In this document: positions 17,437 to 19,116 of the stretch, piece after piece | How the letters are laid out: each line of letters begins with the position of its first letter | Position numbering within the stretch: the first letter of the stretch is position 1 | NCBI RefSeq assembly: GCF_025685415.1 | Contig: NZ_JAGSYB010000001.1 | Span: 2,418,001-2,482,000 of the forward strand | Length of the DNA stretch: 64,000 nt | Source of the DNA: Terriglobus aquaticus | GTDB taxonomy: Bacteria; Acidobacteriota; Terriglobia; Terriglobales; Acidobacteriaceae | Direction of reading: 5' to 3' | Position numbers and translations under genes: made by a program | The notes under the pieces: generated by a model | Seen by the model: the letters and a program-made list of their open reading frames with translations, nothing else | Told to the model about the DNA's origin: nothing | Database searches by the model: none

Positions 17437-19116
17437 ATGCCGGCAATCGAACTCCATAACACCCTGGGCGGCCGCACGGAACCGCTCACGCCCGAGCGCG
17501 ACAACACCCTCCGCATGTACTGCTGCGGCCCCACCGTCTACGACTACGGCCACATCGGCAACTTCCGCACCTTTCTCCACGTCGACGTCCTGCGCCGCTA
17601 CGCCCGCCTGCGCGGCATGAACCTGCTCCACGTCATGAACATCACCGACGTCGAAGACAAGATCATCCGCAACGCCAACGCCGCGGGTATGCCCATCGAC
17701 CAGTACACCGCCAAGTTCGAGCGCGCCTTCCTGGAAGACATGGACGCCCTCGGCGTCGAGCGCCCCGAAATCCTCGCCCGCGCCACCGAGAACATCCCGG
17801 AGATGGTCTCGCTCATCGAGCGCCTAGCCAGCGAAGACATCGCTTACAAAACCGACGACGGCTCCTGGTACTTCCGCATTGACCGCTTCCCCGACTACGG
17901 CAAGCTCAGCGGCAAAGACCTTGAAGGCATCGAGGACGGCGCCCGCGTCGACGTCGACGAGTACGCCAAGGACTCCGCCCGCGACTTCGCCCTCTGGAAG
18001 GCCTGCAAGCCCGGCGAAGCCTCGTGGGACACCGCCATCGGCTGCGGCCGCCCCGGCTGGCACATCGAGTGCTCCGCCATGGCCATGAAGCACCTCGGCC
18101 CCACCTTCGACCTCCACGCCGGCGGCGAAGACCTCATGTTCCCGCACCACGAGAACGAGATCGCGCAGTCCGAATGCGCCTCGCACCAGCCCTTCGCCCG
18201 GCACTGGTTCCACGTGCGCTTCCTTCTCGTCGAAGGCAAGAAGATGTCCAAGAGCGAGGGCAACTTCTACACCCTCCGCGACCTCCTGCTCATGGGCCAC
18301 CGCGCCTCGTCCATCCGATTCCTTCTGCTCTCGGTGCCGTACCGGCACCAGATGAACTTCACCTTCGACGGCCTCACCGAAAGCGCGAACGCCATCGATC
18401 GCCTGCGCACCTTCGCGAAGCGCCTTCACTCTGCATCGCAAAGCAATCCCGCGGTTTCAGCCGCCGAAGCAGCTACCGGTAGCTCCACGCGGTCCGGCAA
18501 CCACGCGGCTTCAGCCGCCCAGGTAGCCACAAGCGCCGTGCAGCAACCCGCGGCTTTAGCCGCCGAGGTAGCTACCGGGCCTGCCCAGGACCGCGGCTTT
18601 AGCCGCCGAGGTGACAAACCTTCCGCTGCTGCGACCGAGTTCGGGACTCCCAACTCGGAACTCGCAACTCTCCTCGCGCAAAAGCGCGAAGCCTACCACG
18701 CCGCTCTCTCCAACGACCTCAACACCGCCGAAGCCCGCGCCGCCATCTTCGACGTCGTCCGCGCCGTCAACATCGCGCTCGACAACGGCACCGTCTCCGC
18801 CACCGACCTCGAAGCCACCCGCGCCCTGTTGAACGACTTCGACGCGGTCTTTGACGTCCTCACCGACCGCGATGCCGCCACCACTCAGGCCGCCATCGAC
18901 TGGGCCAAAGCCGAAGGCCGCGAAGCCAGCATCGCCCCCGAGCTCCTCAACACCCTCTCGCTCTCCGACGCCGACATCGACCAACTCATCGCCGAACGCA
19001 ACGACGCCCGCAAACGCCGCAACTTCGCCCGCGCCGACGCCATCCGCAACGAGCTCCTCGAAAAAGGCATCCTCCTCGAAGACACCAAAGCCGGAGTCAC
19101 CTGGAAACGCAAGTAG
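17437..19116 (+). CDS. cysS: Cysteinyl-tRNA synthetase with in-frame repeat insertion
   Basis: 559 residues, about 70-90 longer than usual. HIGH motif as HIGN (39-42), zinc ligand C30 in CCGPTVYD, GWHIECSA and FPHHENE zinc residues, and KMSKS at 269-273. The C terminus has the DALR-like helical domain and RNFARADAIRNELLEKGI. Between catalytic and helical domains, about residues 336-411, is an Ala/Ser/Val-rich stretch with no family counterpart; its DNA is four palindromic units (see the repeat entry). The insertion keeps the frame, so the enzyme, which is essential, is presumably active with an extra linker. Confidence 0.96.
   Translation: MPAIELHNTLGGRTEPLTPERDNTLRMYCCGPTVYDYGHIGNFRTFLHVDVLRRYARLRGMNLLHVMNITDVEDKIIRNANAAGMPIDQYTAKFERAFLEDMDALGVERPEILARATENIPEMVSLIERLASEDIAYKTDDGSWYFRIDRFPDYGKLSGKDLEGIEDGARVDVDEYAKDSARDFALWKACKPGEASWDTAIGCGRPGWHIECSAMAMKHLGPTFDLHAGGEDLMFPHHENEIAQSECASHQPFARHWFHVRFLLVEGKKMSKSEGNFYTLRDLLLMGHRASSIRFLLLSVPYRHQMNFTFDGLTESANAIDRLRTFAKRLHSASQSNPAVSAAEAATGSSTRSGNHAASAAQVATSAVQQPAALAAEVATGPAQDRGFSRRGDKPSAAATEFGTPNSELATLLAQKREAYHAALSNDLNTAEARAAIFDVVRAVNIALDNGTVSATDLEATRALLNDFDAVFDVLTDRDAATTQAAIDWAKAEGREASIAPELLNTLSLSDADIDQLIAERNDARKRRNFARADAIRNELLEKGILLEDTKAGVTWKRK
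18448..18615 (+). repeat. Four palindromic units inserted in frame in cysS
   Basis: Unit cores are at 18451-18464 (GCGGTTTCAGCCGC), 18505-18518 (GCGGCTTCAGCCGC), 18550-18563 and 18593-18606 (both GCGGCTTTAGCCGC). Each is followed by CCGAGGTAGCTACCGG or a variant. Core spacing is 54, 45 and 43 bp. The cores are inverted repeats able to form 6-bp hairpins. In frame they encode Ala-Ala-Xaa-Val-Ala repeats; the last two are read in different frames. Confidence 0.85.

Follow-up and report, generated by a model that had tools for sequence, protein, structure and literature searches.

A tandem array of palindromic repeats within the reading frame of the cysteinyl-tRNA synthetase gene of Terriglobus aquaticus

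The repeats that most resemble the one considered here are described in PMC3733652. GTAG REPs are short palindromes that occur as dimers and clusters, mostly between genes, and are tied to Y1 transposases; the list of phyla with GTAG repeats with which that account opens does not name the Acidobacteria. The same source describes REPs lying in frame within genes, including those of tRNA synthetases and RNA helicases, with clusters encoding 43-82 aa. TIRYT elements, i.e. Y1 transposases between inverted repeats, are reported there from the Acidobacteria K. versatilis, T. saanensis, A. capsulatum and G. mallensis, and one such repeat forms a family in K. versatilis. Some TIRs share the motif GGGGWSAS, which is not called universal in that part of the text. 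The source summarises Rickettsia palindromic elements as repeats that sit in frame in genes whose products are likely functional proteins. The intragenic R. conorii repeats RPE-4 and RPE-6 belong to a CGTC-tagged group, and for CGTC repeats these sections state that a transposase link was not found (PMC3733652).

The array reported here is real and derived from a mobile element, and adds a new example to a kind of event that is already known. The phenomenon as such is not new, since in-frame REPs in the tRNA synthetases of other bacteria have been published in the sections just cited. We found no precedent for such a coding insert at the level of the phylum in the open-licence literature.

The four-unit array and the linker of CysRS

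The window, i.e. the whole 64-kb stretch of DNA that was analysed, contains a cysS gene whose frame (17437-19116) is uninterrupted along its whole length. A first-pass annotation had noticed four related 14-bp palindromes in frame inside this gene, between the catalytic and the helical domains. Both statements are confirmed: the units span 18448-18621 with the frame open throughout, and in the Pfam assignment the array falls between tRNA-synt_1e (catalytic, residues 19-315) and DALR_2 (420-474), with CysS_C (C-terminal) at 511-556. The features are as follows.

17437..19116, + strand: cysS, insert-bearing cysteinyl-tRNA synthetase, 559 aa (ORF, Pfam, alignment to the solved CysRS structures 8qhp and 1li5)
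18448..18621, + strand: in-frame array of four palindromic units, 174 nt or 58 codons (model residues 350-401 have pLDDT below 50)
18448..18479, + strand: unit 1, core 18451-18464, the most diverged; tail CGAAGCAGCTACCGG; reads AVSAAEAATG
18502..18533, + strand: unit 2, core 18505-18518; tail CCAGGTAGCCACAAG; reads AASAAQVATS
18547..18578, + strand: unit 3 (type A), core 18550-18563; tail CGAGGTAGCTACCGG; reads AALAAEVATG
18590..18621, + strand: unit 4 (type B, the last), core 18593-18606; tail CGAGGTGACAAACC; reads RGFSRRGDKP

Each unit is about 32 nt long and consists of a 5-bp stem closed by a TTYA loop and a tail akin to CGAGGTAG; the last pair of unit 1 is T-G. The unit starts are spaced by 54, 45 and 43 nt, and the spacers separating the units show no conservation. 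The 14-bp cores are GCGGTTTCAGCCGC, GCGGCTTCAGCCGC and, twice, GCGGCTTTAGCCGC, and over the 32 nt compared units 2, 3 and 4 are 75, 88 and 66% identical to unit 1. The tails are indeed related, as had been claimed, but they are not uniform: CTACCGG is found only in units 1 and 3, while unit 2 ends in GCCACAAG and unit 4 in GGTGACAAACC. Units 1-3 share one codon phase, and unit 4 uses another.

The array is not reproduced by chance. At up to two mismatches the real coding sequence has four matches, and codon-shuffled cysS never gave more than one (2000 trials, 1956 with none and 44 with one). In the window, the 19-nt pattern of core plus tail (up to three mismatches) matched the four cysS units alone, with 0.31 matches expected. 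The bare 14-mer at the same tolerance is only somewhat above chance, with 22 matches in the window against a mean of 14.7, a count reached by 2 of 100 shuffles.

The linker between the end of the catalytic domain and DLNTA is 113 residues long here and 47-51 residues long in the other genomes of the genus that were compared (17 of 18, without G010). The long linker is thus not shared by relatives, and the insert is lineage-specific. Seven linkers that could be taken by pattern from the best 34 of 80 relatives measured 48-50 aa. The cysS match of G010 (L143 / L131) is in two pieces with a TGA counted within the second, which may reflect either an assembly fault or a broken gene. The expansion had been put at about 75 codons, which is too many: the array comprises exactly 58 codons and the excess over the congeners is 62-66 residues, so a few flanking codons must have changed too. 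Shortly 3' of the array, at window positions 18652-18670, there is a run AACTCGGAACTCGCAACTC with 7-nt periodicity, which may be the source of some of the codons beyond the 58.

In the alignment to 8qhp and 1li5 the insert separates two aligned blocks, falling after query residues 328-332 and before 413-420. The AlphaFold model of CysRS, run with an alignment of 31 sequences, has a mean pLDDT of 86.7, with 410 of the 559 residues at 90 or above. Its sole run below 50 is residues 350-401, flanked by helices at 338-347 and 407-425; blocks near 161-180 are also weaker (pLDDT 63-67). Going by the model, the insert probably places some sixty flexible residues between two domains.

Further copies in the genome and the family

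Of the two outcomes that the annotation had named as refuting its reading, an equally long linker in relatives and a lack of further copies, neither was seen: copies occur both in the same genome and widely in the family. In the 4.16-Mb genome a search with the unit and its tail (up to three mismatches) found four loci, cysS among them, and a search with a two-unit model added a fifth, C1:1206140, among the matches listed (7 of 8). The four loci other than cysS have two units each.

C1:3088130: between an outer-membrane barrel gene and the next ORF
C1:3133384: between galK and galT
C1:3848995: within an Lhr-type helicase gene, between the DEAD and the C-terminal helicase domains
C1:1206140 (L315 1541-1610): between the genes of complex I chain 3 and the 30-kDa subunit

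Two of the five known loci, cysS and the Lhr-type helicase gene, therefore have their copies in a reading frame. Unit 4 of cysS resembles the last unit at three other loci of the genome; cysS, C1:3088130, C1:3133384 and C1:3848995 all end in GAGGTGAC, and C1:1206140 ends in GAGGTAGA instead. Measured at three of the two-unit loci, the spacing from A to B is 44, 45 and 43 nt. At C1:3133384 the second unit has a divergent stem, GGGCC/GGCCC, in which pairing is kept. In the helicase gene the array is in frame, and its A and B units have codon phases identical to those in cysS. The helicase linker has 128 residues here and 37-116 in 18 congeners; it is variable in length anyway, which makes this case weaker than that of cysS. 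A further match, C1:2308461, was dropped, as the stretch around it has no palindrome. We also note a stretch ACAGGGAACAGGGAA just 5' of the repeat in the helicase gene (L006, about 1420-1440), which is resembled by a tandem heptanucleotide, (CTGTTCC)5.4, at window positions 4736-4772 (ACAGGGA on the opposite strand).

With up to one mismatch allowed, the 20-nt core was present in 149 of 300 genomes of the family, the genome itself and its genus counted in, and its reversed-pattern control in 9 of 300 (read off the table). Copy numbers go up to 81, in G002; G001 has 78, and the reversed control gives 0 in both. In other words, congeners carry the repeat as a REP in the wide sense, i.e. a palindrome of 20-40 bp in many dispersed copies; the genome itself has its 5 known loci. 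The tail GCCGAGGTGACGAACC was tried as a family marker and rejected: it matched 68 of the 300 genomes (up to one mismatch) with 1-2 matches each, save for the three in the genome itself, and its reversed control also matches many genomes. Its matches elsewhere are taken as chance.

Within 50 nt upstream of 83 of 146 copies there is a further hairpin whose loop is TT[ACT]A, a count in which neighbouring units of arrays are included; 112 of 5000 random 50-mers from the same loci contain one. Head-to-tail arrays like that of cysS occur in G003, where they are intergenic or at ORF ends as far as checked. One of them (L317 1521-1900) has at least five units; it is found at an ORF's 3' end and precedes a gene for a short-chain dehydrogenase.

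Coding copies seem rare among the relatives. In a chosen, non-random set of 147 distinct copies at 104 loci, own cysS included, 15 ORFs of at least 180 aa have a copy with 40 codons or more on either side. Apart from cysS, 14 of these ORFs were scanned and five have a Pfam domain. In four of the five (CcmH, phosphorylase, short-chain dehydrogenase, Y1_Tnp) the copy lies to one side of the domain, and the true start or stop is uncertain. Only the copy in the fifth, an M14 carboxypeptidase gene of G013 (L298 456-2699, - strand), looks interior: a related two-hairpin copy in frame, which reads GARLQPGRQTQPEQAALAAEG and adjoins a Gly/Asn-rich stretch. Judged by its sequence, this is likely a third coding case, in a congener.

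Association with Y1 transposases

Y1_Tnp matches were found in 17 of 19 genomes of the genus, 16 of them over the cut-off and that of G009 under it. In G002, three of seven such matches lie 85-119 bp from a copy of the repeat, a proximity attained by none of 20000 circular shifts and by 25 of 20000 local ones; the remaining four are 4-78 kb from the nearest strict copy. Inverted copies occur at both gene ends at L277 and L278 (G002) and at L309 (G015), and all three ORFs match Y1_Tnp. At L276 there is a copy at the 5' end of a transposase gene. The gene at L277, like that at L278, is enclosed by two inverted copies of GCGGCTTTAGCCGC, each followed by TGAGGT or TGAGGG, and the first hairpin upstream is full at two of the four copies and represented by its right half alone at the other two. 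In G015, whose CysRS is the most similar among the congeners in its catalytic part (88%), both inverted copies have a full first hairpin, and the stem of the second is GGGGC/GCCCC. Since two-hairpin inverted copies thus bracket Y1/RAYT-type genes in two congeners, the repeat has the appearance of a RAYT/TIRYT terminal repeat.

The copies that flank RAYT genes differ from the type seen in the T. aquaticus genome by the TGAGGT or TGAGGG ending and a different or half first hairpin, and no transposase was seen next to the A-B subtype of that genome. Searches of the genome itself with PF01797 (E 0.001) and with a profile of four repeat-linked transposases (E 1) found no RAYT, and the mover is therefore inferred. 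The presence of the repeat does not track that of the transposase genome by genome: G018 has five strict copies and zero Y1_Tnp matches, and G004, G006, G007, G009 and G011 have Y1_Tnp matches yet zero strict copies (0, 1, 1, 11 and 0 matches to the two-unit model, respectively).

Origin of the insert and its place among known repeats

We consider it very probable that the insert consists of a short tandem series of units of a mobile, REP/TIR-type palindrome of the Y1/RAYT transposases of Acidobacteriaceae, a series founded by an A-B element and tolerated in frame. On this view a RAYT would have carried an A-B element of two units into cysS, probably as a single strand of DNA that was recognised via its hairpins. 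Units 3-4 are the likely founder, as they share the A-B order, the 43-nt spacing and the codon phases with the Lhr array, and units 1-2 would be later additions, by duplication or further insertion. The transposase may subsequently have been lost, or may never have been resident. The unit is free of stops in four of six frames with CGAGGT and in three of six with TGAGGT, so a gene can stay open when the length of the insert fits. Survival of the insert would thus be owed to the stop-free unit, to a length that kept the frame and to its position in a permissive hinge that joins the catalytic domain to the helical bundle; the added codons would encode a linker predicted to be disordered. The enzyme that bears it is presumably functional. 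A more elaborate version, in which CGAGGT marks a coding-tolerant form whose head-to-tail arrays build tunable disordered hinges (CysRS, Lhr helicase), the transposase having since been lost, appears unlikely to us.

The array could also be imagined as an Ala-rich linker of low complexity that grew by slippage in a GC-rich gene, the palindromes being a by-product of Ala and Gly codons. The base composition does favour runs of GCG and GCC, and the linkers of the congeners vary slightly (47-51 aa). Nevertheless, codon shuffles of cysS fail to reproduce the array, and the intergenic copies of the same DNA unit in the genome, together with the two codon phases within cysS, indicate that it is the DNA, rather than the protein, that is conserved; we give slippage next to no credence. 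Nor is it at all probable that the units are portable ribosome-binding sites, with a GAGGTGA-like tail 5' of a start codon driving the next gene and the cysS copies being misplaced relatives. At two loci of the genome the arrangement is suggestive: ATG follows GAGGT after 8 nt at L004 and after 5 nt at the gene of the 30-kDa subunit of complex I (L315), with GAGG at a Shine-Dalgarno-like position. Yet a start codon (ORF of at least 80 aa) lies at 4-12 nt in only 16 of 150 copies against a mean of 11.1 at shifted positions, and 19 of 200 controls reach 16, which is not significant.

Transcribed REPs have reportedly been proposed to slow the ribosome or to affect message stability, and the units might likewise be kept as mRNA hairpins between the domain-coding parts. 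The array does fold well, with -83.2 kcal/mol against a shuffle mean of -68.9 (z -3.4, 1 of 200 shuffles as good), but any array of palindromic repeats would do so, and unit 2 alone retains its own hairpin in the minimum-energy fold, in which unit 1 pairs with unit 4. Moreover, such an insert occurs in the cysS of 0 of 17 congeners compared, and an Rfam search at E 1 gave no match. A role of this kind is quite improbable.

With the mobile REP/TIR-type palindrome as the preferred origin, cysS is a clean case, found in one of 18 genomes of the genus compared, of a gene for an essential enzyme whose reading frame has taken up repeat DNA. It ties a coding insert to a transposon-end repeat, the link that the sections of PMC3733652 cited above state was not found for CGTC repeats. 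Should removal of the linker prove to have no effect, this would support tolerated hinges acting as a filter, and not selection for the linker.

The repeat is like the GTAG REPs, as the cited sections describe them, in its short palindromes, its dimers and clusters, its mostly intergenic location with some copies within genes, and the link to Y1 transposases. It differs in that GTAG stands at the foot of the hairpin (within the 6 nt before it) in only 2 of 146 copies; the tail is mostly GAGRT, and 7 of 146 copies have GTAG at the tail end. With the TIRYT elements it shares the phylum and the inverted repeats flanking a Y1 transposase, which were found in G002 and G015 and not in the T. aquaticus genome. 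It departs from them in that GGGGWSAS occurs in 0 of 146 copies (50 nt upstream, one strand), and coding insertions of TIRs like the cysS array are not described in that part of PMC3733652. Like the Rickettsia palindromic elements summarised there, it is a palindromic repeat in frame inside genes; as far as the frame alone is concerned, this holds for cysS, the Lhr helicase and the M14 peptidase of G013. The CGTC tag of the Rickettsia RPE and CGTC REPs is found in 0 of 146 copies (within 8 nt upstream and 6 nt downstream of the unit), and the transposase link not found for CGTC repeats in that account is present here in relatives. As GTAG, CGTC and GGGGWSAS are absent from all or nearly all of the 146 copies, the repeat is filed as a REP/TIR type of RAYT-like transposases, neither a GTAG REP nor an RPE. 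The Rickettsia analogy drawn by the first-pass annotation keeps its value for the in-frame palindromic repeat, but the array fits better among the REP/TIR repeats that go with Y1 (RAYT/TIRYT) transposases, because two congeners carry the unit at both ends of a transposase gene.
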